In this document: positions 23,506 to 37,132 of the stretch, piece by piece | Numbering within the stretch: the stretch's first letter is position 1 | Layout: the number at the start of each line of letters is the position of its first letter | Assembly (NCBI GenBank): GCA_013697735.1 | Contig: JACCWH010000145.1 | Span: 1-50,089 of the forward strand | Reading direction: 5' to 3' | DNA: 50,089 nucleotides | DNA from: Trueperaceae bacterium | GTDB lineage: Bacteria > Deinococcota > Deinococci > Deinococcales > Trueperaceae | Notes under the pieces: model-generated | Databases searched by the model: none | What the model saw: only the letters and a program-made list of their open reading frames with translations | Told to the model about the DNA's origin: nothing | Program-made: the position numbers and the translations under genes

Positions 23506-24515
23506 CGTTCTCTCCTGGGGTCGTGGGATCTGGCACTCTCGGCGCCGGCCCGCGGACCGGCGACCACGTCGGCCTCCCCGTCACCGGTGAGCACGGCGAC
23601 GACGTTCCGCGCCGCTGCCATGCCCATGCGGTGCGCGGCTTCTGCCGTGCCCGCGCCGAGGTGGGGCGTGGCGATGAAGGTCGGCAGCGCCAGCAGCGGC
23701 GAGTCACCCGGCGGCTCGTGCTCGAAGCAGTCGGCGGCGGCGCCCGCGATGACGCCTCGCCGGAGCGCACTCGCGAGCGCCCCCTCGTCGACGAGGCCGC
23801 CGCGGGCGGTGTTCACGAGCACGGCGTGCGGTCGCATGCGCTCGAGCGCCCGGGCATCGACCAGGTGACGCGTAGCGGAGCTGAGGCCCACGTGCAGGCT
23901 GACCGCGTCGCTGGCGCCCCAGAGTTCGTCGAGCGCGACACGCTCGACCCCAGGGACGTCGGGCGCGAGCGGGTCGGCGGCGACCACCCGCATGCCGAAC
24001 GCCTGCGCGCGCGCGGCCACCTCGCGACCGATGCGGCCGATGCCGACGAGCCCGAGCGTGCGCCCGGAGAGTTCCCAGCCGACCGAGCGCGACCAGCCGC
24101 CACCGCGAACGTGTTCGATCGCGGCGGGGAGGCCGCGGGCGAGCGCGAGGAGGAGCGAGAGCGTCAGTTCGGCCACGGCGATGGTGTTGGCGCCCGGCGT
24201 GTTGGTCACGACCACGCCGTGCGCTGCGGCGGCGTCGAGATCGACGTTGTCGACGCCGACGCCGTAGCGCGCCACCACGCGCAGCCGCGGGGCCGCCTCG
24301 AAGACGCTCGCGTCGCAGTGGTCGAGCCCGAGCAGGAGGGCGTCGGCGTCGCGCGCGAGGTGCGCGAGAGCGGGGGCATCGAGGGGCACCTCGGGGGCGG
24401 CGAGCACGAGCTCGAAGCCGGCGTCGCGCAGTAGGTCCTGATGCGGCCCCGACACGGCGCAGTAGCTGCGGGCCGTCGCCACCACCCGGGGCAGCCGTGC
24501 GGCGGCGCCCCTCAC
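23502..24515 (-). CDS. D-isomer-specific 2-hydroxyacid dehydrogenase (PGDH-like)
   Basis: A 337-residue NAD(P)-dependent dehydrogenase. Cofactor motif GLVGIGRIGRE lies at about 155-165; catalytic residues are R238 (VNTARGG), E267 (DCFEHEPPG) and H285 (ATPHLGAG). The substrate loop RYGVGVDNVDL resembles phosphoglycerate dehydrogenase and glyoxylate/hydroxypyruvate reductases. It lacks the ACT or ASB regulatory domains of serine-pathway SerA, which fits a catabolic role. The GTG start overlaps the kinase stop (GTGA). Exact substrate unknown. Confidence 0.88.
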   Translation of the reverse strand: MRGAAARLPRVVATARSYCAVSGPHQDLLRDAGFELVLAAPEVPLDAPALAHLARDADALLLGLDHCDASVFEAAPRLRVVARYGVGVDNVDLDAAAAHGVVVTNTPGANTIAVAELTLSLLLALARGLPAAIEHVRGGGWSRSVGWELSGRTLGLVGIGRIGREVAARAQAFGMRVVAADPLAPDVPGVERVALDELWGASDAVSLHVGLSSATRHLVDARALERMRPHAVLVNTARGGLVDEGALASALRRGVIAGAAADCFEHEPPGDSPLLALPTFIATPHLGAGTAEAAHRMGMAAARNVVAVLTGDGEADVVAGPRAGAESARSHDPRRER

Positions 24516-26053
24516 GATGCCCCCGGTGCGGTGCGCCGGCGGCCGAGCTCGCTCGTGAGCGTCAGGAGGGAGGCGTAGTCGTCGATGCAGGGCGCGTAGG
24601 CGGCGTGGCGCTCGGGATCGGGTTCGATCGCTCGACGGGTGGCGTTGAAGCGCTCGGCGCTCGTGGCGACGTCGGTGATGAGCCCCACCGCCCGCCCGGC
24701 GAGGAGCGCGCAGCCGAGGGCGCCCCCCTCCTGGCGCACGAGCGGGTGGTACGAGACACCGAGCACGTCGGCCTTGATCCGTCCCCAGAGCGCGGACGCG
24801 GCGCCCCCTCCGACGGCGCGCACCGCCACGTCGCCGAGGTCGCGGTGGAGGCCGCGGGTGGCGCGGAGGTAGAGGGCGTACTCGAACGCGACCGCCTCGA
24901 GCAGTGCTCGGTAGAGGTGCCCTCGCCCGTGCGCCCAGCCCAGACCGGTGAACGCTCCGCGTCCGTGGGGATCGTGCGGCGTGACGCGACCGCCGAGGTG
25001 GGGCGACGCGCGCACGCCGTCGGCGCCCGCCGGCACCCCGGCCGCCTCGGCGTCGAGCGCAGCGAACGCTTCGGCAGTGGCGAGCGGCGCGAGCTCGCGC
25101 GCGAACGCGTCGCGGAACCAACCGAGGTTGAGGCCGCCGCCTTGCACGTAGGCGAGGGCGTAGTGGACGCCTTCGAGCGCGGTGCGGGCGGTGAAGAGCA
25201 TGCGGGCGTCGACGTCGGGGTGGAAGTGGGCCACGCACGTCGCCAACACCGACGCGGAACCGGCCACGTCGAGTGCGACACCGGGGCGGACCACGCCCGC
25301 GCCGAGCAGTCCGGCGGCCGTGTCGCCGCAGCCCGCCGCGATCGGTGTGCCGGCGCGGAGTCCGGTCGCCGCCGCCGCCTCGTGCGTGACCTCGCCGATC
25401 ACGTCCCACGGCTGCACGATCCGCGGGAGGAGCCGCTCGGGCACTTCGAGCGCCTCGACGAGTTCGCTCGACCAGACCTCGCGCTCGGTGTCGGCGAGGC
25501 ACGAGAAATGGAGGTACGTGGGATCCACGAACGCGTCGGCGCCCGACAGGCCCGCGAGCCGACCGGCGAGATACGCGCCGGGCATCACCATGGCGCTCGC
25601 GCTCGCCACCTCCTCGGGGCGCTCGCGCAGCCACCAGCGCAGCTTCGGACCGTGGGAGTAGGTCGGGGCGCCGCCGGTGAGCTGGAGCACGCGCTCGGCG
25701 TGGGGGCGCATGGCGGCGACGTCGGGATCGCAGCGCGTGTCGAGCCAGGAGTCGTAGGGGCCGCGGGCGCGGCCGTCGCGGCCGACGAACATGATCCCGG
25801 CCATCTGACCGTCGCACGCGAGCGCGGCGACGTCGCTCCCGCTCGCACCGGCCCCTGCGAGCGCCCCCCGCACGGCCTCCGCGAGCTCCTCTTCCATCTC
25901 GCGCGGGTCCTGCTCGACGCGCCCCGCCCCATCGCGATGGAGTCGCGAGGGGACGGTCGCTGCGCCTCGCAGCGCGCCGCCGAGGTCGTAGAGCGCGGCT
26001 TTCGTCCCTCCCGTGCCGGCGTCGACACCGAGGAGGAGCTCGGGGTGTCTCAC
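24512..26053 (-). CDS. FGGY-family carbohydrate kinase (xylulokinase-like)
   Basis: A 513-residue two-domain sugar kinase. The phosphate-binding loop is VDAGTGGTKAAL (about 10-21). The sugar-contact region CDGQMAGIMF, the catalytic-base region GCGDTAAGLLGAG, and the C-terminal adenosine motif VGGGAASALWGRIKADVLG are all present. The GQMAG variant (xylulokinases usually read QMHG) implies a ketose or polyol substrate other than, or besides, xylulose. The GTG start overlaps the upstream dehydrogenase stop. It is the obvious phosphorylation step of this operon. Confidence 0.9.
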   Translation of the reverse strand: MRHPELLLGVDAGTGGTKAALYDLGGALRGAATVPSRLHRDGAGRVEQDPREMEEELAEAVRGALAGAGASGSDVAALACDGQMAGIMFVGRDGRARGPYDSWLDTRCDPDVAAMRPHAERVLQLTGGAPTYSHGPKLRWWLRERPEEVASASAMVMPGAYLAGRLAGLSGADAFVDPTYLHFSCLADTEREVWSSELVEALEVPERLLPRIVQPWDVIGEVTHEAAAATGLRAGTPIAAGCGDTAAGLLGAGVVRPGVALDVAGSASVLATCVAHFHPDVDARMLFTARTALEGVHYALAYVQGGGLNLGWFRDAFARELAPLATAEAFAALDAEAAGVPAGADGVRASPHLGGRVTPHDPHGRGAFTGLGWAHGRGHLYRALLEAVAFEYALYLRATRGLHRDLGDVAVRAVGGGAASALWGRIKADVLGVSYHPLVRQEGGALGCALLAGRAVGLITDVATSAERFNATRRAIEPDPERHAAYAPCIDDYASLLTLTSELGRRRTAPGAS

Positions 26054-27105
26054 GCCCCCTCCTCGGGGACGAGCAGCACACGGGCGTGCTCGCTCCGGGC
26101 GGCCGCCTCGAAGGCGTCGACGGCGCGCTCGAACACGAAGGTCGCGCTCACCATGCCGTCGAGCGAGACGCGACCCGCCGCTAGCAGCGCGAGCGTCGTG
26201 CGGAACGTGGGGAGCGAGGCGCCGGTCGTACCGAGCACGGTCCGATGCCGGTAGTGCAATGGATTCGGATCGATCGAGAGTCGCGCACCGGCAGGAACGC
26301 CGGCGAAGACGTTGAGGCGCCCGCCGGTGGCGAGCATGGCGATCGCCGCCTCGATCGCGCGCGCGTCGCCGACCGTGACGGCCGCGACGTCGACGCCGTC
26401 ACCGCCCGTCGCTGCCAGCACCTGGGAGGCCACGCCCTCGGCGTCGTCGGCGGCCTCGTCGATGACGACGGCCGCGCCGAGGGCTCGAGCGTGCTCGAGT
26501 CGCTCCGCGTTCCGACCGATCACCACCACGCGTCCCGCCCCGAGCGCGAGCGCGGCGGCGACGTGCAGACGCCCCATCGCACCGGCGCCGACCACGAGCA
26601 CGTTCTCCCCCGCCCGCAGACCGGACGCCGTGAGCCCCTCGACGCAACAAGCGAGCGGCTCGAGGAGCGCGGAGCGTTCGTCGTCGATGCTCTCGGGGAG
26701 CGGGATCAGGTGCCCGGCCGCCGCCGCGTGACGCGGTACCAGCAGGTACTCGGCCATGCCACCGTCGAGGTGGATGCCGAAGGCGCGGAACTCGGCGCAG
26801 TAGTTCGTGGCGCCCGCCTCGCACCAGCGGCACGTCCCTTCGCCGACGTTCGGTGCGACCGCGACCCGGACGCTCGCGCCGCCGCCGCCGGCGACGACGA
26901 TCTCGCCGACGATCTCGTGGCCGAGGATCCGCGGATCCGTCCCCGGGGTGCCTCGCGCGGCGAGCTTTCGGTCGGTCGTGCAGATGCCCACGGCGCGCAC
27001 GCGCACGAGCACGTCGCCGGCACCGGGAACGGGCACCGCGACGCGTTCGACGCGGAGGTCGCCGGGGCCGTGGACGCGTACGGCGCGCATCGTCTCGGGG
27101 ATCAC
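26050..27105 (-). CDS. Zinc-dependent medium-chain (MDR) dehydrogenase
   Basis: A 351-residue alcohol/polyol dehydrogenase. Catalytic zinc ligands are C42 (GICTTDRK) and H63-E64 (LGHEIVGE), with E149 in LLEPLACCVEG; the NAD loop is VVGAGAMGRLH (about 171-181). The structural-zinc lobe reads GEGTCRWCEAGATNYC, with only three of the usual four cysteines, so that zinc may be absent or completed by another residue. The closest groups are sorbitol, threonine and inositol-pathway (IolM-type) dehydrogenases. The GTG start overlaps the GntR stop; an ATG six codons in is an alternative. Confidence 0.88.
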   Translation of the reverse strand: MIPETMRAVRVHGPGDLRVERVAVPVPGAGDVLVRVRAVGICTTDRKLAARGTPGTDPRILGHEIVGEIVVAGGGGASVRVAVAPNVGEGTCRWCEAGATNYCAEFRAFGIHLDGGMAEYLLVPRHAAAAGHLIPLPESIDDERSALLEPLACCVEGLTASGLRAGENVLVVGAGAMGRLHVAAALALGAGRVVVIGRNAERLEHARALGAAVVIDEAADDAEGVASQVLAATGGDGVDVAAVTVGDARAIEAAIAMLATGGRLNVFAGVPAGARLSIDPNPLHYRHRTVLGTTGASLPTFRTTLALLAAGRVSLDGMVSATFVFERAVDAFEAAARSEHARVLLVPEEGA

Positions 27106-27899
27106 GATGTGCTCGCCACCCCTGGGCGCACGAGGTCGACCTCGAGCACGGTCCGGTCGCCGCGGTGCTTCGCCTCGTAGTACTCGACGGCGAGCCCGTT
27201 CGCGAGGAAGGTGACGCTGCGTAGGAAGAGCAGCGGGTCGCCCTCCTCCACACCGAGGAGGGCGACGTCGGTCTTGGCGGCGGCGATCGCCTCGAGGGTG
27301 CGGCGCCCGTAGGCGATGTGGAGGCCACCCGTCTCGGCGAGGTAGGCGTAGAGCGAACGGTCACCGAGGTCGGCGTGCGCGAGCGGTGGGCAGAGCGCGA
27401 GTGGGATCCAGGTGGTGACGAGGACGATCGGTTGCGGATCGTGGTCGACCGATCGGAGCCGTTCGATGCGCACGACGTCGGTCCCGACGGGGATCTCGAG
27501 TTGCGCGGCGACGGCCGACGGCGCACGCACGACGGCGTGGTTGAGCACGACCGTGTGCGGCGTCCTCCCCTGCTCGGTCATGTCGTCGTGGAACCCGGTG
27601 AGGGTCTGGACGAGCTGGCCACGGATCTTCGGCTCGGCCACGAACGTACCGAGGCCCTTGCGGCGGAGGAGGAGTCGCTCGTTCTCGAGCTCGCCGAGCG
27701 CCTGACGCACCACGGTGCGGCTCACGTCGAAGAGCGCGCAGAGCTCGAGTTCGGATGGGATGCGCGTGCCGGGGGTCCAGCGACCGCTCACGATCTCGTC
27801 GCGAACCAACTCCTTCAGCTGGTGGTAGTAGGGCATGGGGCTGTCGCGATCGATGCCGCCATCGATCCCGCTCCGGTCCCACGTCTCGCCGTCCGCCAC
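27102..27899 (-). CDS. GntR-family transcriptional regulator (HutC type, UTRA domain)
   Basis: A 265-residue regulator. The N-terminal winged helix-turn-helix covers about residues 22-90 (PMPYYHQLKELVRDEIVSG and the recognition helix near SRTVVRQALGELENE). The UTRA ligand-binding domain covers about 105-255, ending YYEAKHRGDRTVLEVDLVR. Such regulators usually bind a pathway sugar phosphate or related metabolite and repress their own operon. The GTG start has a strong GGAGGAGGGA upstream. Its probable sites are the two repeats in the divergent control region near 34.9-35.0 kb. It is the only regulator gene in the cluster. Confidence 0.92.
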   Translation of the reverse strand: MADGETWDRSGIDGGIDRDSPMPYYHQLKELVRDEIVSGRWTPGTRIPSELELCALFDVSRTVVRQALGELENERLLLRRKGLGTFVAEPKIRGQLVQTLTGFHDDMTEQGRTPHTVVLNHAVVRAPSAVAAQLEIPVGTDVVRIERLRSVDHDPQPIVLVTTWIPLALCPPLAHADLGDRSLYAYLAETGGLHIAYGRRTLEAIAAAKTDVALLGVEEGDPLLFLRSVTFLANGLAVEYYEAKHRGDRTVLEVDLVRPGVASTS

Positions 27900-27919: not shown

Positions 27920-29083
27920 TCAGCCCTGCTCGACCGTGACGCGCACGCCGTCGGCCGCGGAGCGGAGTGCCGCCTCGAGCACCAGCGTCTCACGCAGGCC
28001 GTCGTCGAACGTCGGGGCGATCGCGGCACCATCGGCCACCGCAGCGACGAAGTCGACCACGGCGTGATGGAAGGTGTGTTCATAGCCGATGGTGTGACCG
28101 GGGGGCCACCAGGCGGAGATGTAGGGATGCTCGCTCTCCGTCGCCAGGACCGTCCGGAAGCCCTGGAGGTAGGACGGATCGTGCCGCGAGAAGACCTCGA
28201 GCTCGTTGAGGCGTTCGAGGTCGAAGGTGATGCTCCCCTCGCTCCCGTAGATCTCGAAGGTGTGGTGGTTCTTGCGTCCCGAAGCGAAGCGCGACGCCGA
28301 GAACGAGCCGAGCGCACCGTTCTCGAACTCGGCGAGCATGAAGGCGGCGTCCTCGACGGTGACCTCGCCCGTCTCACTCACCTCGCCGGCACCCGCGGAG
28401 AAGGTCGCCGCGCCGGCGCCGGGGAGGGGACGCTCGCGAACGAACGTGGTGGTCATGGCGCTCACGCTCGCGATGTCGCCGACGAGGAAGCGCGCGAGGT
28501 CGATACTGTGGCTGTTGAGGTCGTGGTGCGGCCCCGAGCCCGCGGCGTCGGCCTGGAGGTGCCAGGTGAGCGGGAACGAGGGATCGACGATCCAGTCCTG
28601 CAGGTAGGAGCCGCGCCAATGGAAGATACGTCCGACGAATCCGTCGTCGATCAGCCGCTTCGCGAGCATGATCGCCGGAACGCGTCGGTAGTTGTGGTTG
28701 AGGTAGTGCACGACGCCGGCGTCGGTGGCGGCGGCGAGCATGGCGCGCGCCTCGGCCGATGTCCGTGAGAGCGGCTTCTCGCAGAAGATGTGCTTGCCGG
28801 CCTCGGCGGCGGCGATCGCGATCTCGGCGTGGAGGTTCGTCGGGACGCAGATGTCGATCACGTCGACGTCGTCGCGCGCCACGACGTCGCGCCAGTCCGA
28901 CGACGTCTCCTCCCACCCCCATGTGTGGGCGAAGCGTTCCAGCGTCGCCTGGTCTCGGCCGCAGGCGACCTTGAGCACCGGCCTCGCCCCCATCTCGAAG
29001 AAGCGTGGCGCGTTGCGCCAGGCGTGCGAGTGGGCCTTGCCCATGAAGTTCTGCCCGATGATGGCGACGTTCAAGCTGCGCAT
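27920..29083 (-). CDS. Gfo/Idh/MocA-family dehydrogenase (operon copy)
   Basis: A 387-residue NAD(P)-dependent sugar or cyclitol dehydrogenase. The Rossmann motif is IIGQNFMGKAHSH (about 8-20), the catalytic lysine lies in CEKPL (101-105), and the proton-relay region is GPHHDLNSHSIDLARFLVG. The substrate could be a sugar, sugar acid, inositol or glycoside-linked sugar; related enzymes oxidise C1, C2 or C3 hydroxyls. The GGGGAGGATCGCC leader before the ATG is a strong ribosome site. It lies between a TIM-barrel isomerase gene and the GntR gene. Confidence 0.9.
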   Translation of the reverse strand: MRSLNVAIIGQNFMGKAHSHAWRNAPRFFEMGARPVLKVACGRDQATLERFAHTWGWEETSSDWRDVVARDDVDVIDICVPTNLHAEIAIAAAEAGKHIFCEKPLSRTSAEARAMLAAATDAGVVHYLNHNYRRVPAIMLAKRLIDDGFVGRIFHWRGSYLQDWIVDPSFPLTWHLQADAAGSGPHHDLNSHSIDLARFLVGDIASVSAMTTTFVRERPLPGAGAATFSAGAGEVSETGEVTVEDAAFMLAEFENGALGSFSASRFASGRKNHHTFEIYGSEGSITFDLERLNELEVFSRHDPSYLQGFRTVLATESEHPYISAWWPPGHTIGYEHTFHHAVVDFVAAVADGAAIAPTFDDGLRETLVLEAALRSAADGVRVTVEQG

Positions 29084-29099
29084 GGCGATCCTCCCCCCA

Positions 29100-29960
29100 T
29101 CACGCGAGGCTCGCGGCGATCTTCTTCAGCGCGGCGACGCTCTTGCGGGCGGCGGCGTGTTCGTCGTCGCCGTAGTCGGGGTGCAAGAAGTCGGTCTCAG
29201 CGGCGAGGAACCCCTCGTAGCCGGCCTCCTCGAGTTTCCGCGCGAGCGCCTCGTTGTCGATGAGGCCGTCGCCCACGGGCACGCTGGAGAAGAAGAACCA
29301 GTCGTCGGGGGCCGCGTCGGGGTTGACCTTGAGGTCCTTTATGTGGGTCGCGAAGGTGTACGGCGCCAGCGCGTCCATCCCCTTCACCGGGTCGTCGAGC
29401 AGCCGCAGGAAGTTGCCGGTGTCGAAGTTGATGCCGAAGTTCGGCGAGCCGACCGCCTCGATCATCCGGACCATCTCGGCGGCGGTGAAGTCGATGTGGT
29501 TCTCGACGGCGAGCTTGACGCCGGCAGCTTCGGCGATCGGGGCCGCCTCGCGGAACTGCGCCACGAGCGCGTCGATCTGCGGACCGTGCGGTTCGAGGCG
29601 GTACATGTGGCTGCAGCCGACCACGCGCATGACGTCGGCGCCGATGGCGACGGCGCGGTCGATCGAGGCGATCATGTCGCGGAACTCGCCGGGGTTCTGG
29701 CCGCGCTCGAGACCGTCGGGGTGGCCCCAGGCGTAGACGCGGTCGAAGCCGTACTCGTCGAGCTTCGCCTTGAGGTCGGCGAGGTAGGCATCGTCGAAGC
29801 TCGGGAAGAAGCACGATTCGAGCGAGACGCCGTCGACGCCGAGCTCCTTGGAGAAGTCGAGGAAGTCGTCCATGGTCATTCGGAAGGGCGCGGGCTGCTG
29901 TTGCGGGTAGACCTCACCGAAGAAGCGGTGGAAGCAGTAGGAGTCGATGCCGATCTTCAT
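29100..29960 (-). CDS. Xylose-isomerase-like TIM-barrel sugar isomerase/epimerase
   Basis: A 286-residue AP_endonuc_2 family barrel with probable metal ligands E153 (LAVENHIDF), D180 (INFDTGNF), H206 (FATHIKDL) and E255 (LAAETDFLH). It differs clearly from the D-tagatose-epimerase-like barrel at the other end of the operon; in similar operons such proteins are isomerases, epimerases or inosose dehydratases. A GGAG site lies before the ATG. It is the first enzyme gene after the transporter genes and is separated from the binding-protein gene by a hairpin. Confidence 0.85.
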   Translation of the reverse strand: MKIGIDSYCFHRFFGEVYPQQQPAPFRMTMDDFLDFSKELGVDGVSLESCFFPSFDDAYLADLKAKLDEYGFDRVYAWGHPDGLERGQNPGEFRDMIASIDRAVAIGADVMRVVGCSHMYRLEPHGPQIDALVAQFREAAPIAEAAGVKLAVENHIDFTAAEMVRMIEAVGSPNFGINFDTGNFLRLLDDPVKGMDALAPYTFATHIKDLKVNPDAAPDDWFFFSSVPVGDGLIDNEALARKLEEAGYEGFLAAETDFLHPDYGDDEHAAARKSVAALKKIAASLA

Positions 29961-29988
29961 GGTGCTCCGTTCCAGGTGTGGGGTGGGC

Positions 29989-30014
29989 GGGGCCGCCCAC
30001 TTCGAGGCGGCCCC
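29989..30014 (-). terminator. Stem-loop between binding-protein gene and first catabolic gene
   Basis: A 9-bp GC stem (29989-29997 pairing with 30006-30014) around an 8-base loop, inside the 75-base gap after the binding-protein stop. It lacks a U tract, so it is more likely a 3' mRNA stabiliser or partial attenuator, as often follows binding-protein genes in ABC operons. Confidence 0.55.
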
Positions 30015-30035
30015 GCGGTGCGTGTGGCGATGGGG

Positions 30036-31163
30036 TTAGCGGCCGCCCCAGCGCTCGGGGAAGCCGGGCATCTCTTCGCAGCCGCAGAGCGCGTAGTGCA
30101 GCGGCGGCATGTTCGGCTGGATGTACTGGTCGAGGTTCTCCTCGGTCACCACGGGCTGCGGGAGCACCCAGTGCCCGGGGACGCTCTCGCCGCCGAGGAT
30201 CATGGTGGCGGCGATGATCGGCGTGCGCCACTGGTAGGTCGGGAAGGTGGGGGCGACGGCGGTGAGGCCCTCGTCGCGCCACTTGATGAGGAAGTCCTGC
30301 TGATCCTCACCGGTGATGATCGGGTAGGGGGCGCCGAAGTCCTCGAACGCCTCGAGCGCGGCGACGGCGGTGGCGCCGGCGTCCATCCAGATGGCATCGA
30401 TCTGACCGAAGAGCTGGATGTAGTCCTCGACGATCGACTTGGTGTTGGCGGTCGAGCCTTCGGTGAACTCGGAGCCGACGACGTTCACGCCGGCGTCCTG
30501 GAAGATCCGCTCGGCGCCCGACCAGCGGTGCTCGAGCACGTCGACACCTGGCAGGATTCGGAGGGCGAGCACGTTGCCGCCGTCGGGGAGGTTCTCGACG
30601 ATGAAGTTCGCCGCCGCCGCACCGAAGGCGTAGCCGCCGATGGGGGTGATGAAGGTGACGGGGCAGTCGGTGTTGACGCCGCGGTCGAAGACGATGACGG
30701 GGAGCTGCTCGCAGGCGGCCTCGACGGCGGGCGTCAGCGCGGCGGTGGTGTTGGGCGAGACGATGAGCACGTCGCAGTCGCCACTGGCGAGCAGGCCGTT
30801 GATGTCGCTGATCTGCTTGTTGTCGGAGCCCTCGGCGTCGACGTGGATGAAGTTGGTGATCTCCGGGTGCAGATCGACCTCGGCTTGCATCGTGGTGTAG
30901 CCCACCACGCGCCAGGGGTTGTTGACGCCGGCGTTGGAGAAGCAGACGGTGTAGGGGCCTTCGGTGGCGTACTCGCTGGTATCGACGTACTCGGGCTCGA
31001 TCGCCTGAATCCAGGGCTGATCGGCCGGGCCCTCGGCCTCCATCTCCATGGCGTCGAGCTGGAACTGGAGATCGTCGGCGTCGAAGAAGTCGTTCTGCGC
31101 CACGACGAACGTCATGGCGATGGCGGCGAGCAGGGCGAGCATGATTCTGATCGTGCGGTGCAC
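30036..31163 (-). CDS. Sugar ABC transporter substrate-binding protein (RbsB/Peripla_BP_4 type)
   Basis: A 375-residue exported binding protein. The signal peptide is MHRTIRIMLALLAAIAMTF ending VVAQ. The ligand-binding fold shows YTVCFSNAGVNNPWRVVGYT, LLASGDCDVLIVSPN, PVIVFDRGVNTDCPVTFI and AIWMDAGATAVAALEAF, the RbsB-type pattern. An acidic 35-residue extension lies between the signal and the fold. Aromatic (NPWR) and acidic residues fit a cyclic sugar or polyol. The GTG start has AGGAGG six bases upstream. Ligand unknown; this is the most useful protein for finding the operon's substrate. Confidence 0.91.
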   Translation of the reverse strand: MHRTIRIMLALLAAIAMTFVVAQNDFFDADDLQFQLDAMEMEAEGPADQPWIQAIEPEYVDTSEYATEGPYTVCFSNAGVNNPWRVVGYTTMQAEVDLHPEITNFIHVDAEGSDNKQISDINGLLASGDCDVLIVSPNTTAALTPAVEAACEQLPVIVFDRGVNTDCPVTFITPIGGYAFGAAAANFIVENLPDGGNVLALRILPGVDVLEHRWSGAERIFQDAGVNVVGSEFTEGSTANTKSIVEDYIQLFGQIDAIWMDAGATAVAALEAFEDFGAPYPIITGEDQQDFLIKWRDEGLTAVAPTFPTYQWRTPIIAATMILGGESVPGHWVLPQPVVTEENLDQYIQPNMPPLHYALCGCEEMPGFPERWGGR

Positions 31164-31238
31164 GTGAAACCTCCTGATTGGATGGACCGGCCGTGGTGGC
31201 CTGTTGGAGTGCCGATGCCGTGCAGTACGTCGCGTCGT

Positions 31239-32258
31239 CTACGCACCCCTTTCCTGACCTGCGCGGACGGCACGCCAAGCGGCGTACGCGACCGCGCCGA
31301 TGATGATGGCGCCTTGCACGGTCACCCGGATGGGTGACGGGAGGCCGAGGAAGTTGAGCAGCGTGAAGAGGGCCTGGAGCGTGAGCGCACCCGCGAGCGC
31401 CGCGGGCATGTTGCCGCGTCCGCCGAGCAGCGCCGCACCACCGAGCACGACCGCCGAGATCGACTCGAGCTCGAGCCCATCGCCGACGTTGATCGACACG
31501 CCCGAGAAGCCGCCGAGCATGATGCCGGCCGTGACCGCGGCGAGCGAGGAGATCACGAACGCCGAGATGCGCACGAGTGACACGCGCACGCCGGCGAGCC
31601 GCGCGGCGTGCTGGTTGTCGCCCACCGCGAGGGCGTGCTTGCCCAGGACCGTGAAGTGGAAGAGGTAGATGAAGAATGCCGAGAGCACCACGAGCGCGAT
31701 CACGGCCCACGGCAAGCGCCCCACGAAGGGGACGCCGTCGATCGTCGCGCGACCGAAGGCGCGAAAGTTGTCGGGGAGCGCGCCGCGGGGGGCGCCGCCC
31801 GTCCAGAGCAGGGCGAGCCCTTTGAGCGACAGGAGCATGCCGAGGGTGGTGATGAACGACGGCACGCGCAGGAAGCTCGTGACCGACCCGTTGAAGAGCC
31901 CCACGAGGAAGCCGATGCCATAGAGCAGGGCGATCACCCACCAGGTGTTGCCCGGGTCGCCGAATGCGAGCAAGGCCCCCGCTAGCACCGTGAGCGTCAC
32001 GAGTGAGCCCTGCGAGAGGTCGAAGCCGCCGGTGACCACCACGAAGAGCTGCCCCGCCGCGAGGATCATGAGCGGAGCAGCGCGGCGGAGGAAGTTGAGG
32101 AAGAACGTCGGCTCGATGAAGCGCGGATTGAGGTAGGTGATCCAGGCGATGAGGATCACCAGCACCAAGAAGACCGGCCCGACCTTGCCGATCGCGTTCA
32201 GCACGCTTCGCCAGACGGGCGTGGGGTTCGGTGCCGAGCTCGCACGGGCGTCGCTCAT
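31239..32258 (-). CDS. Sugar ABC transporter permease (RbsC type), second
   Basis: A 339-residue inner-membrane permease (BPD_transp_2 family) with about eight to ten helices. FVVVTGGFDLSQGSLVTLT and the later AVVLGGAALLGGRGN are the family's paired signatures. The ATG has a GGAGG upstream and overlaps the stop of the first permease (ATGA). With its paralogue it likely forms a heterodimeric channel driven by the double ATPase. Confidence 0.92.
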   Translation of the reverse strand: MSDARASSAPNPTPVWRSVLNAIGKVGPVFLVLVILIAWITYLNPRFIEPTFFLNFLRRAAPLMILAAGQLFVVVTGGFDLSQGSLVTLTVLAGALLAFGDPGNTWWVIALLYGIGFLVGLFNGSVTSFLRVPSFITTLGMLLSLKGLALLWTGGAPRGALPDNFRAFGRATIDGVPFVGRLPWAVIALVVLSAFFIYLFHFTVLGKHALAVGDNQHAARLAGVRVSLVRISAFVISSLAAVTAGIMLGGFSGVSINVGDGLELESISAVVLGGAALLGGRGNMPAALAGALTLQALFTLLNFLGLPSPIRVTVQGAIIIGAVAYAAWRAVRAGQERGA

Positions 32259-33238
32259 CCGACCACCTCCTTCGATCGGTAGGCGTAGACGGCGACGGCG
32301 CCGATGATGATGAGACCGCGCAGCACCTGCTTGAGGTAGGAGTCGACGCCGAGCTGGTTGAACATGGTGTCGAGCGTGGCGAAGATCAGCACACCGGCGA
32401 CGGTGCCGAGCACCCCGCCACGCCCGCCGGCGAGGACGGTGCCACCCACCACCACGGCGGCGATCGACTCGAGGTCGTAGACGCCGTCGGGGCCGATCCA
32501 GGGCGCCCCCGACGAGAGCCGGCTCACGAGGTAGAGGCCGGTGATCACGGCGGTGAGGCTGGTGAGCACGTGGGCGCCGATCACGATGCGGTCCGAGCGG
32601 ATGCCGGAGAGTCGGGCGGTGGCGCGGTCGCCGCCCACCGCGTAGACGTGCGCGCCGAAACGCGTGCGCATCAGGATCCAGGCGGCGATCGCGACCACCA
32701 CGGCGAAGAGCAGCATCGGCACCGGCACGGGGCCGATGCTGCCGTAGGCGAGGTACTGGAAGGAGCGCGGTACGGAGCCGGCGAAGTTCTGGAAGGAGGC
32801 GTTGAGGAGCCCGCGGAGGATCAGTCCCACGCCGAGCGTGGCGATGAGCGGGTTGATGCGCAACTTCGTCACGAGCAGACCGTTGACGAGGCCGACCACC
32901 ACGCCGATCCCGGCCACCACCGCGATCGCGAGGGGAACGCGACTCGGGTCGCCCTGCATGATGTACGACGCCATCACGGCGGTGACGCTGATGAGGTAGG
33001 CGACGGAGAGGTCGAGCGACCCCACCAGGATCGCGAAGGTCTGCCCCACCGCGACGATCCCGAGCGCGGTGGCGCGCTCGACGATGTTGTTGAGGTTCGA
33101 CGGCGCCACGAAGTCGCCGCGGCCGTAGAGCGTCACGAGGAGCCACGCCGTCAGGAAGGTGACGAGGAGCAGCCACCAGATGATGGGGATCCGCACGCGC
33201 CGGAGACGCTGCGGCAGGCTCTGCGTGGCGGCGCTCAT
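32255..33238 (-). CDS. Sugar ABC transporter permease (RbsC type), first
   Basis: A 327-residue permease paralogous to the next gene. Family signatures are FAILVGSLDLSVAYLISVT, RFGAHVYAVGGDRATARLSG and AVVVGGTVLAGGRGG. The N terminus is cytoplasmic and basic (PQRLRRVR). The ATG overlaps the ATPase stop by four bases, showing tight coupling. Length is normal for the family. Confidence 0.92.
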   Translation of the reverse strand: MSAATQSLPQRLRRVRIPIIWWLLLVTFLTAWLLVTLYGRGDFVAPSNLNNIVERATALGIVAVGQTFAILVGSLDLSVAYLISVTAVMASYIMQGDPSRVPLAIAVVAGIGVVVGLVNGLLVTKLRINPLIATLGVGLILRGLLNASFQNFAGSVPRSFQYLAYGSIGPVPVPMLLFAVVVAIAAWILMRTRFGAHVYAVGGDRATARLSGIRSDRIVIGAHVLTSLTAVITGLYLVSRLSSGAPWIGPDGVYDLESIAAVVVGGTVLAGGRGGVLGTVAGVLIFATLDTMFNQLGVDSYLKQVLRGLIIIGAVAVYAYRSKEVVG

Positions 33239-34833
33239 GCGCTCGCCCCGCGCTCGGCGGTAGCCGTTGCGGTCTGCCGGGCGCGTGGGTCGCCGCCGCC
33301 GTGCGTTGCCAGCGCCATGATCTCGGCTTCGCTCGCGCCACCGGGGAGCTCGCCGGCGATACGCCCCTCGCGCATCACCACGATCCGGTCGCTCATGCCG
33401 ATCACCTCGAGCAGCTCCGAGGAGATCATGATCACGGCCATGCCGTCGCGGGCGGCGTCGCGCACGAGATGGTGGATGCTCGCCTTGCCGTTGACGTCGA
33501 TGCCGCGCGTGGGCTCGTCGAAGATGAGCAGGTCCTCGGCGGTCGCGAGCCACTTCGCGAGCACCACCTTCTGCTGATTGCCGCCGGAGAGGAACTGCAC
33601 CTCCTGCTGCGGGCCGCTCGCGCGCAGATCGACGGAGGTGGTGAGTTCGCGCACGCTCGGGTGCCCGGGCGTGCGCTCGCCGCCGAGGCGCGCGAGGGCG
33701 GGGCGCAGGGCGCGGTAGGCGAGGACGACGTTGTCGTAGATCGGTTGCCGGAGGGAGAGGCCTTCGCGTTTGCGGTCCTCGGTGATGAACCCGAGGCCGA
33801 GCCGCACCGCTTCACGCGGTGAGCGGAGCCGGGCGGGCTTCCCCTTGATGGTGACGTCGCCGGTGGTGAAGGGATCGACGCCGAAGAGCGCGCGTGCGAG
33901 CTCGGTGCGGCCGGCGCCCTGGAGGCCGGCGATGCCGAGCACCTCGCCGGCGCGGACCTCGAGGTCGATATCGTGCAGGACGTGGTTGCCTCCGCCACGC
34001 ACGCGCACGACGACGTCGCCGAGGTCGTCGGGATTCGCGCGCGGTGGGTAGAAATCGGCGAGGTCGCGGCCGACCATCAGCCGCACGAGTTCGTCGCCGT
34101 CGAGTTCGTCGCCCCTGCGCGTGTCGACGTGTTGGCCGTCCTTGATGACGGTCACGCGATCGGCGATTTCGAAGATCTCGCGGAACCGGTGCGAGATGTA
34201 GACCACCGTGACGCCCCGTTCACGCACGTCGCGCATGAGTCCGAAGAGGACGTCGACCTCGGGCCCCGAGAGCGCCGCGGTCGGCTCGTCCATGACGATC
34301 ACGCGCGCGTCGAACGACATCGCCTTGGCGATCTCGACCATCTGCTGCTGGGCGATCGAGAGGTCGCGGACCATGGCGAACGGATCGACGAGGTGCTCCA
34401 CGCCCAGCTCGCGCAGGAGCGTGCCGACCTGCCGGCGCAGCGCGCGGTCGTCGATCATGCCGAAGCGCGTCGGTTCGCGGCCGAGGTAGATGTTCTGCAT
34501 CACGGTGCGGTGCGGGAGGAGGTTGAACTCCTGATGGATGACGCTGATGCCGGCCTGCTGCGCCTCGAGCGGGTGGCGGAAGGTGACGGGGCTTCCGAAG
34601 AGCGTGACGTCGCCGGCGTCGGCGGTGTAGGCGCCGCCGAGGATCTTCATGAGCGTCGACTTGCCGGCGCCGTTCTCCCCGACGAGCGCGTGGATCTCAC
34701 CCACGGTGCACGAAAAATCGACGCCGTCGAGCGCGGTCACGGCGCCGAAGCGCTTGACGATGCCCCGCATCTCGAGCGCCGGGGTCGTTCCGGCTCCTAC
34801 TCGCGCGCTCGCGTCGCGTGCCGCTCCGGTCAA
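33235..34833 (-). CDS. Sugar ABC transporter double ATPase (RbsA/MglA type)
   Basis: A 532-residue protein with two ABC domains. The first has Walker A GENGAGKST, a degenerate signature LSIAQQQMVEIA and Walker B VIVMDEPTAALS. The second has the usual degenerate Walker A GLQGAGRTE, signature LSGGNQQK and Walker B LLIFDEPTRGID. This is the standard CUT2 architecture that imports monosaccharides and polyols. The TTG start is chosen because GAGGAG lies five to six bases upstream. It is the first gene of the leftward operon, just inside the divergent control region. Confidence 0.94.
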   Translation of the reverse strand: MTGAARDASARVGAGTTPALEMRGIVKRFGAVTALDGVDFSCTVGEIHALVGENGAGKSTLMKILGGAYTADAGDVTLFGSPVTFRHPLEAQQAGISVIHQEFNLLPHRTVMQNIYLGREPTRFGMIDDRALRRQVGTLLRELGVEHLVDPFAMVRDLSIAQQQMVEIAKAMSFDARVIVMDEPTAALSGPEVDVLFGLMRDVRERGVTVVYISHRFREIFEIADRVTVIKDGQHVDTRRGDELDGDELVRLMVGRDLADFYPPRANPDDLGDVVVRVRGGGNHVLHDIDLEVRAGEVLGIAGLQGAGRTELARALFGVDPFTTGDVTIKGKPARLRSPREAVRLGLGFITEDRKREGLSLRQPIYDNVVLAYRALRPALARLGGERTPGHPSVRELTTSVDLRASGPQQEVQFLSGGNQQKVVLAKWLATAEDLLIFDEPTRGIDVNGKASIHHLVRDAARDGMAVIMISSELLEVIGMSDRIVVMREGRIAGELPGGASEAEIMALATHGGGDPRARQTATATAERGASA

Positions 34834-34905: not shown

Positions 34906-34932
34906 GATGTCATGTTGTCATTACAAGCTAGC
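34906..34932. promoter_or_regulatory. Operator-like repeat, copy 1
   Basis: A 27-base element containing ATGTTGTCATTACAAGC, whose core TTGT-CATT-ACAA is a short inverted repeat. It matches copy 2 (35003-35029) at 24 of 27 positions, in the same orientation, 97 bases apart. It sits 70-100 bases before the leftward ABC operon. AT-richness stands out against the surrounding GC-rich DNA. The cluster's GntR protein is the natural candidate to bind it; overlap with promoter elements is possible (TAGCTT lies beside it on the minus strand). Confidence 0.6.
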
Positions 34933-35002
34933 GCGGCAGCGTGGGGGTGTCAAGGGCGGCGATCGGACCGTGGCGTGCGCGCGCGCTGGGCTCCCGCTCG
35001 AG

Positions 35003-35029
35003 GATGTTATGTTGTCATTACAGGCAAGC
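35003..35029. promoter_or_regulatory. Operator-like repeat, copy 2
   Basis: Second copy of the 27-base element, containing TTATGTTGTCATTACAGGC, differing from copy 1 at three positions. It ends 25 bases before the ATG of the rightward Gfo/Idh gene. TATGTT within it fits the TANNNT -10 pattern used in this genome, so a bound repressor could cover the rightward promoter directly. Confidence 0.6.
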
Positions 35030-35054: not shown

Positions 35055-36077
35055 ATGGCACACGTCAGGGTCTGCGCGATCGGCACCGGCAGGGCCGGCA
35101 TGGTCCACGCCCGCAACTTCCGCTGGCACGTCCCCCATGCGGAACTCGTAGCGGTGGTCGACACGAACGCTGCGTCGGCGGCCACGGCAGCGCTCGAACT
35201 CGACCTCCCCGGACGTGGCTTCGCGACGCTCGCCGAGGCCACCGCCGCCGTCGACGTCGACGCGGTGGTGATCACCACCCCCACGTTCACGCACGAAGCG
35301 CTCGTTCGCGAGGCCGCGGCGCACGGCCTCCACGTCCTGTGCGAGAAGCCCATGGCGCTCACCGTCGCGTCGTGCGATGCGATGATCGCCGCCTGTGATC
35401 GGGCTGGCGTGCTGCTGCAGCTCGCCTTCATGCGGCGCTTCGATCCCCCCTTCGTGACGGCGAAACGCGACCTCGACGCCGACCTCGTGGGCGCGCCCCT
35501 CATCGTCCGCTCGCTCACGCGCGGGCCCGGGCTCCCTCCCGCCTGGGCGAACGACGTCGCCACCAGCAACGGCATGCTCGCCGAGGTCAACAGCCACGAC
35601 TTCGACACGGTCCGCTGGCTCGGGGGCGCCGACATCGTCGAGGTGTACGCGCGCGCGAGCGCCCGAAAGCGTCCCGACCTCCTCACCGAGCTCCCCGACT
35701 TCTACGACACCGCGATCGTGAGCGCCACTCTCGGCAACGGCGTGTACGCCATGATCGACGGCATCTGCCCCGCCGACTACGGCTATGATGCGCGTGCCGA
35801 GGTGGTGGCCGAGCGAGGCGTGCTCTTCGCCGGCGAGCTGCGTACGGACGGTTCGCTCCGCGTCACGCGTGACGGTGGCGAAGCGCGCGACCACTTCGTG
35901 AGTTGGCGCGACCGCTTCCGCCGCGCCTACGAAGCGGAGGCCGAGCACTTCGTGCGCTGCGTTCGCGATGGCGCGGTACCCTCCGTGGGTGGGATCGACG
36001 GCCGTGCGGCGGTGGCCGCGGTGGTGGCCGCGAACAGATCGATCTCGCAAGGGCGCGCAGTGCAGGTCGACGCCTGA
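35055..36077 (+). CDS. Gfo/Idh/MocA-family dehydrogenase (divergent copy, inositol 2-dehydrogenase-like)
   Basis: A 340-residue NAD(P)-dependent dehydrogenase. The N-terminal Rossmann motif is [14 protein letters not shown], the catalytic lysine lies in CEKPM (96-100), and [16 protein letters not shown] is the substrate/proton-relay block, closest in style to inositol 2-dehydrogenases. The ATG has GGGAGG four bases upstream. It is divergent from the ABC operon and shares its control region, so co-regulation is likely. A D-lactate dehydrogenase-like gene follows 47 bases later. Confidence 0.9.
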
Positions 36078-36124
36078 GGATCGCTGCCGGCACGACCCGC
36101 TTCGCGCCGGGAGGAGGAAGCGAC

Positions 36125-37132
36125 GTGAGGGTCGCCGTCTTCAGCACCAAGAGCTATGACCAGCGCTACCTCGAGCTCGCCAACGCCCTGCACGATCACG
36201 GCCACGAGCTCACCTTCTTCGAACCACGCCTGCTCGAATCGACGGCGCCCCTCGCGGCCGGCTTCCCTGCCGTCTGCGCGTTCGTCAACGATCAACTCGG
36301 CGGCCCCGTGCTCCGCGCGCTCCACGCGCAGGGGACGGAGCTCGTCGCGCTGCGTTCCGCCGGGTTCAACCACGTCGACCTCGCGGTGGCGTCCGAACTC
36401 GGCATGACGGTGGTGCGGGTTCCGGCGTACTCGCCCCACGCGGTCGCCGAGCACGCCCTCGCGCTCGTCATGGCACTGAACCGGAAGACCTTCCGAGCCT
36501 ACAACCGCGTGCGCGAGGGCAACTTCTCCCTCGAGGGGCTGCTCGGCTTCGATCTGCACGGCAAGACCGTGGGTGTGATCGGAACGGGCAAGATCGGCCT
36601 GATCTTCGCCCGCATCATGCGCGGGCTCGGTTGTCGGGTGCTGGCGTTCGACCCCTACCCCAGCCCCGAAGCGGAGGAGTTCGTGACGTACGTATCGCGC
36701 GCCGAACTCTTCGCGGCGGCGGACGTGATCTCACTCCACTGCCCACTGACGCCCGAGACGCACCACCTCATCGACGACGACACCGTCGACCAGATGAAGG
36801 ACGGCGTGATGCTCATCAACACGAGCCGCGGCCAACTCGTCGACACGCGCGCCGTGATCGAGGGGCTCAAGTGCGACCGAATCGGGCACCTCGGCCTCGA
36901 CGTGTACGAAGAGGAGGAGGACCTCTTCTTCCAGGACCTCTCCGACCGCGTGATCCGCGACGACGTCTTCTCGCGCCTGCTCACCTTCCCGAACGTCCTG
37001 ATCACGGGGCACCAGGGCTTCTTCACGCGCGAGGCCGTGACGAGCATCGCCGAGACGACGTTGGCGAACGTCACCGCGTACGAGCGCGGGCACGGCACCA
37101 TGCACGTCGTCACCGCCGACAAGATCGCCTGA
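36125..37132 (+). CDS. ldhA: D-lactate dehydrogenase-like 2-hydroxyacid dehydrogenase
   Basis: A 335-residue NAD-dependent enzyme of the LdhA type, reducing pyruvate to D-lactate or acting on a similar 2-oxo acid. The start [16 protein letters not shown], the loop [14 protein letters not shown], the cofactor loop VIGTGKIG (151-158), and catalytic R235 ([10 protein letters not shown]), E264 ([10 protein letters not shown]) and H296 (ITGHQGFF) match LdhA closely. The GTG start has GGAGGA upstream. It is probably co-transcribed with the Gfo/Idh gene, which would place it at the reducing end of the sugar pathway; a housekeeping fermentative role is equally possible. Confidence 0.9.

Follow-up and report, generated by a model that had tools for sequence, protein, structure and literature searches.

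Two predicted operators of a GntR/UTRA regulator in a divergent control region of a Trueperaceae genome

RESULTS

Gene cluster and regulator

The window (the whole stretch of 50 089 nucleotides analysed here) carries a sugar-transport and catabolic gene cluster that is split by a divergent control region (Table 1). The leftward operon runs from the ABC ATPase gene through gntR and beyond the FGGY kinase gene with gaps of at most 75 bp. The enzymes of the cluster appear to point towards inositol-like chemistry, with all matches below curated cut-offs: the best NCBIfam model for the Zn-dependent dehydrogenase is scyllo-inosose 3-dehydrogenase IolM, the divergent Gfo/Idh/MocA dehydrogenase best matches inositol 2-dehydrogenase IolG, and a further best match is to a levoglucosan-dehydrogenase-like enzyme. 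Gfo/Idh/MocA and Zn-dependent dehydrogenases together with an FGGY kinase and a sugar ABC transporter are also what we take to be the make-up of the Thermotoga maritima inositol cluster, which the window thus resembles.

The regulator has the domains of the HutC subfamily, an N-terminal GntR winged HTH (PF00392, E = 5e-20) and a C-terminal UTRA domain (PF07702, E = 3e-38). Its scores against the NCBIfam equivalogs HutC, PhnF and TreR (130, 126 and 115 bits) lie under the respective cut-offs (220, 157 and 212).

The gap after the substrate-binding protein gene (29961–30035) holds a G+C-rich hairpin (GGGGCCGCC..GGCGGCCCC). Hairpins of this kind often raise expression of the binding protein over that of downstream genes.

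Table 1. Genes and predicted control elements of the cluster
Feature	Position	Strand	Details or basis
Zn-dependent dehydrogenase (26050–27105) and FGGY kinase (24512–26053)	24512..27105	-	
gntR, GntR HTH and UTRA regulator, HutC subfamily; proposed O1/O2 repressor	27102..27899	-	Pfam
TIM-barrel isomerase (29100–29960) and Gfo/Idh/MocA dehydrogenase (27920–29083)	27920..29960	-	
Two ABC permease genes and substrate-binding protein (30036–31163, Peripla_BP_4)	30036..33241	-	
Sugar ABC transporter ATP-binding protein, first gene of leftward operon	33235..34833	-	
O1, operator site 1 (predicted)	34906..34927	-	CTTGTAATGACAAC-ATGACATC; core 34914–34927, third half-site 34906–34913
Putative -10 TAGCTT (weak, 3/6), leftward operon	34925..34930	-	17 bp from -35; overlaps O1 edge
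Putative -35 TTGACA, leftward operon	34948..34953	-	Sequence
O2, operator site 2 (predicted)	35003..35024	-	CCTGTAATGACAAC-ATAACATC; core 35011–35024, third half-site 35003–35010
Putative extended -10 TG-T-TATGTT, rightward gene	35005..35013	+	Inference; TG at 35005, TATGTT at 35008–35013; overlaps O2, no good -35
Gfo/Idh/MocA dehydrogenase, divergent gene (proposed O2 control)	35055..36077	+	
D-2-hydroxyacid dehydrogenase, downstream of divergent Gfo/Idh/MocA dehydrogenase	36113..37132	+	

A repeat pair between the divergent genes

The 20-mer GATGTyATGTTGTCATTACA occurs twice in the control region, at 34906–34925 (GATGTCATGTTGTCATTACA) and 35003–35022 (GATGTTATGTTGTCATTACA), on one strand and offset by 97 bp; between 34906–34932 and 35003–35029, 24 of 27 positions are identical. 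The pair had been pointed out by a model that read the letters alone (the sequence-only reading), and its positions, equal orientation and identity are confirmed here. When the 221-bp region was shuffled 500 times with dinucleotides preserved, the best 27-bp self-match had a mean of 16.9 and was at most 20. The window was also divided on a fixed grid into 226 consecutive pieces of 221 bp, and no piece reached the 24/27 that the intergenic region itself reaches.

Each core is a partial inverted repeat, as that reading had also noted, self-complementary at 10 of 12 positions in site 1 (TTGTCATTACAA) and at 8 of 12 in site 2 (TTGTCATTACAG). Because the core is near-palindromic the shared orientation of the repeats says little; their direction comes from the flanking GATGTyAT, which we call the third half-site. 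One copy does lie by each divergent gene: 73 bp separate the start of site 1 from that annotated for the ABC ATPase ORF (34833, minus strand), and the end of site 2 is 33 bp from the ATG at 35055 (plus strand).

Genome-wide statements are based on pattern searches. Exact matches to the 14-mer ATGTTGTCATTACA in the 3.52-Mb genome are the two repeat positions only, and allowing up to two mismatches adds one further place. The core TTGTMATKACA is found at the two window sites and once on contig C176. A genome-wide motif search, which the sequence-only reading had put forward as a check, thus showed no scatter over unrelated loci.

Conservation among relatives

Within the family, four genomes only, that of the window included, encode a GntR ortholog with an identity of at least 63%. 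The divergon is shared by three relatives (G012, G016 and G035, the cluster contig of the last ending inside the binding-protein gene), whose intergenic region has a perfect 14-bp palindrome and a flanking half-site (CTTGTCATGACAAG-ATTACATG; ATGTAATCTTGTCATGACAAG). Both window sites read GT-CATT-AC, those of the relatives GT-CATG-AC. In G021 gntR adjoins the rightward dehydrogenase gene, and a site CTTGTCATTACAGGATTACATG (CTTGTCATTACAGG-ATTACATG) lies between the two, at 144 bp upstream from where the matched part of gntR begins. Regulator and site are together here too, although the neighbourhood has changed.

Mismatch-tolerant searches of the relatives with the 14-mer gave mostly chance matches in AT-richer genomes, so the extended motif and the protein orthologs were used instead. 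The extended pattern YTTGTMATKACARNNTNACAT matched G000, G012, G016, G021 and G035 only, once each, among 111 genomes of the phylum, and its reversed control gave 0 matches in the same 111. These five comprise every genome with a GntR ortholog, four in all, and G035, where the divergon stands on a contig ending in the cluster. A position matrix built from seven sites of other genomes, none from the window, ranked the window sites 1 (O1) and 2 (O2) of about 100 000 positions on both strands, with scores of 30.6 and 26.5 against 10.1 for the best unrelated position; ranks 3, 4 and 7 are alternative readings of the same two sites. Scored by itself, the third half-site ranks within the top 0.04% and 0.02% of positions.

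The one palindrome of the relatives is perfect; the two of the window are imperfect, and the gap to the rightward gene is longer there. O1 and O2 resemble each other somewhat beyond the operator itself (29/36 overall, 11/16 after the core), which hints that a local duplication may have given each promoter its own operator.

A TTGACA about 17 bp from a TAnnnT adjoins the operator in G012, G016, G035 and G021. The putative -10 elements of the window are weak, and a generic promoter scan found no promoter above threshold in the window's control region, the TAGCTT -10 included; the case for the putative promoters rests on this layout recurring in relatives and on a perfect promoter at a Bacillota locus (below). 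In the relatives, possible -10 elements of the two divergent promoters apparently face each other across the single operator (compare 34906–34930), so that two polymerases might exclude one another there.

Recognition helix and other phyla

In a Syntrophomonadaceae MAG the gntR homolog (45% identical) is preceded at 47 bp by CTTGTAATTACAGG-ATAACATC; at a Bacillota/Clostridia locus (49%) there are two sites, one of which directly follows a perfect TTGACA-N17-TATAAT promoter. The recognition helix of both regulators is SRTVVRQ, identical to that of the window protein. All loci with this helix have a site in the cluster, against one of about 30 with other helices (G027), in a comparison for which the G012, G016, G021 and G027 loci, unlike the Bacillota ones, were fetched partly for holding the motif and in which many other-helix loci extend no further than about 1.5 kb to either side of the gene. 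Such co-variation is what a cognate pair would be expected to show.

No site was found in the loci of a Candidatus Methylomirabilota homolog (55% identical, helix SRITVRQ) and of a Thermotogota homolog with helix SRSVIRQ; another Thermotogota locus (SRSVVRQ) has only a different palindrome, ATGTTATAACAT, 8.9 kb away. The G027 case is a GntR paralog (35% identical, helix SRTTIRE; L065:5976) preceded at 26 bp by the same palindrome, TTGTCATGACAA, which shows that the site also occurs outside the orthologous group of the window GntR. This palindrome adjoins another sugar ABC transporter, which may reflect cross-talk or shared operator ancestry.

A third genomic site

The core site on contig C176 (CTTGTCATGACATC, C176:16184) lies about 90 bp upstream of the gene for a 441-aa orphan protein (L102:6290-7615) that has no Pfam or PDB match. 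Orthologs among 39 genomes of the family are confined to G000, G012, G016, G021 and G062. Upstream DNA is available in G000, G016, G012 and G062, and TTGTCATGACA is present in 4/4 at about equal distance, the site being perfect in G016, G012 and G062. By inspection, each of these sites offers TTGTCA as a possible -35, 17–18 bp from a TAnCAT. The G016 gene is inside the sugar cluster. Orthologs adjoining that cluster are seen in G016, G012 and G021.

DISCUSSION

Comparison with known systems

HutC operators are palindromes with GT and AC 4 nt apart and a centre consensus MTAK that has published exceptions and is not a strict requirement (PMC4494728). Both window sites have the GT-N4-AC spacing, and their centre, MATK, departs from MTAK, a departure that the spacing and the published exceptions make compatible with HutC membership; the regulator itself has the domains of the subfamily. 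Suvorova et al. 2015 described HutC divergons with 'separate double sites', each near its own operon, and, in four HutC groups, additional weaker half-sites at 7–12 nt from the site centre (PMC4494728). The window pair and its third half-site fit these descriptions: a GT-N4-AC palindrome, a UTRA regulator, double sites of a divergon by their own operons, and an extra half-site, which differs from the published ones in being rather well conserved in the window's group. Since relatives use one perfect operator for both directions and the window has two imperfect ones, the term separate double sites describes the pair best.

The nearest solved homologs are NagR/YvoA of B. subtilis and DasR of Streptomyces (E about 1e-38 to 1e-36), regulators with dre sites. 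In NagR, Arg38 reads G-5 and Arg48 reads G-4 of the TGGT half-site (PMC4333415). Arg48 is kept as Arg61 in the alignment with the window protein and Arg38 is replaced by Leu51, in agreement with a half-site that keeps G-4 and has T at -5. The window system thus differs from NagR and DasR in having TTGT in place of a TGGT-type dre site and one of the two reading arginines, and its cluster has no recognised amino-sugar genes. A literature search with the site sequences found no GntR paper.

Proposed mechanism

We consider O1 and O2 to be, with a probability of about 0.93, operators of the cluster's own HutC-subfamily GntR repressor. The sequence-only reading had named this protein as the likely binder, and its proposal is supported by several independent lines: divergon conservation, the site beside gntR in G021, motif–regulator co-occurrence, helix co-variation, the GT-N4-AC rule and the regulon-like extra copy. 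From these observed features of the DNA and proteins we infer the following scheme of binding, repression and induction.

A repressor dimer would bind each GT-N4-AC near-palindromic core (consensus CTTGTMATKACARS), the third half-site (NNNACAWS) lying 8 bp beyond. O1 would abut and overlap the -10/start of the leftward operon (TTGACA-N17-TAGCTT), which comprises the ABC transporter, the catabolic genes and probably gntR, so that GntR would control its own synthesis; O2 would overlap the -10 of the rightward dehydrogenase gene. Without inducer, the repressor would block RNA polymerase at both promoters, and it would leave the DNA once a pathway sugar, cyclitol or phosphorylated intermediate had bound the UTRA domain. 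O1 would act on the leftward operon and O2 on the rightward one, the part of the second site being a proposal because relatives have a single site in the divergon. The regulon would include at least one more site, on another contig, and the orphan protein there is a candidate for a new enzyme or accessory protein of the pathway.

Alternative explanations

A variant compatible with this scheme is that the pair works as one unit, two dimers binding cooperatively (for example across a 97-bp loop) and controlling both operons jointly. The window does have the paired arrangement, and co-operative common double sites are known in HutC divergons (PMC4494728), but 97 bp is about 9.2 helical turns, which is not clearly in phase, each site sits on its own promoter, and a single site suffices in relatives; we regard the variant as rather improbable. 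A role for GntR as activator, or as dual regulator, of one of the two promoters is unlikely. The absence of a good -35 from the rightward promoter, common in activator-dependent promoters, would suit such a role, yet the operators do not stand upstream of the -35 but overlap either it or the -10/start, where repressors usually bind, and NagR and DasR, the nearest characterised homologs, are named repressors.

Control of the cluster by a different or global regulator of the LacI, ROK, AraC or CRP type has a precedent in Thermotoga, where the inositol regulator IolR is a ROK-family protein (PMC3750489), so that regulator and operator in T. maritima are unrelated to those of the window; the G027 palindrome, moreover, adjoins a different GntR. 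Against this, some three core sites in the genome are too few for a global regulator, the motif co-occurs with the GntR orthologs and co-varies with their recognition helix, and the site stands directly before gntR in G021 and in the Syntrophomonadaceae locus, all of which makes another regulator very unlikely. Least credible of all is that no regulator binds the repeats, which would then be promoter elements in common or the product of a recent local duplication: the similarity beyond the core is compatible with local copying, but across genera and phyla with differing promoter contexts both the palindrome and the third half-site are conserved.

The third half-site

Paired operators of the cluster's GntR repressor would be a well-supported, ordinary bacterial gene switch, the conserved third half-site being the sole unusual detail. 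It is found 8 bp away at nearly every site (absent at the G012 orphan-gene site, weak at one Bacillota site). Reading it as a mere -10 of the divergent gene is possible at G012, G016, G035 and O2; at the Syntrophomonadaceae and Bacillota loci it is found downstream of the core and towards the regulated gene, and for this reason the -10 reading cannot explain all cases. We suggest tentatively, as a possibility short of an expectation, that an operator of three half-sites (TGT..ACA..ACA, the second and third being 8 bp apart) is characteristic of the group and conserved in the window's phylum and Bacillota alike, and that it would be bound otherwise than by one dimer on one palindrome, for example by a dimer with an extra subunit or by overlapping dimers.

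With O1 and O2, an operator, and hence a regulon, would be assigned to an uncharacterised GntR/UTRA regulator that is common to several phyla. The assignment would link the orphan protein family to the catabolic pathway of the window, and the sites offer a clean natural case for probing the role of extra half-sites near HutC operators.
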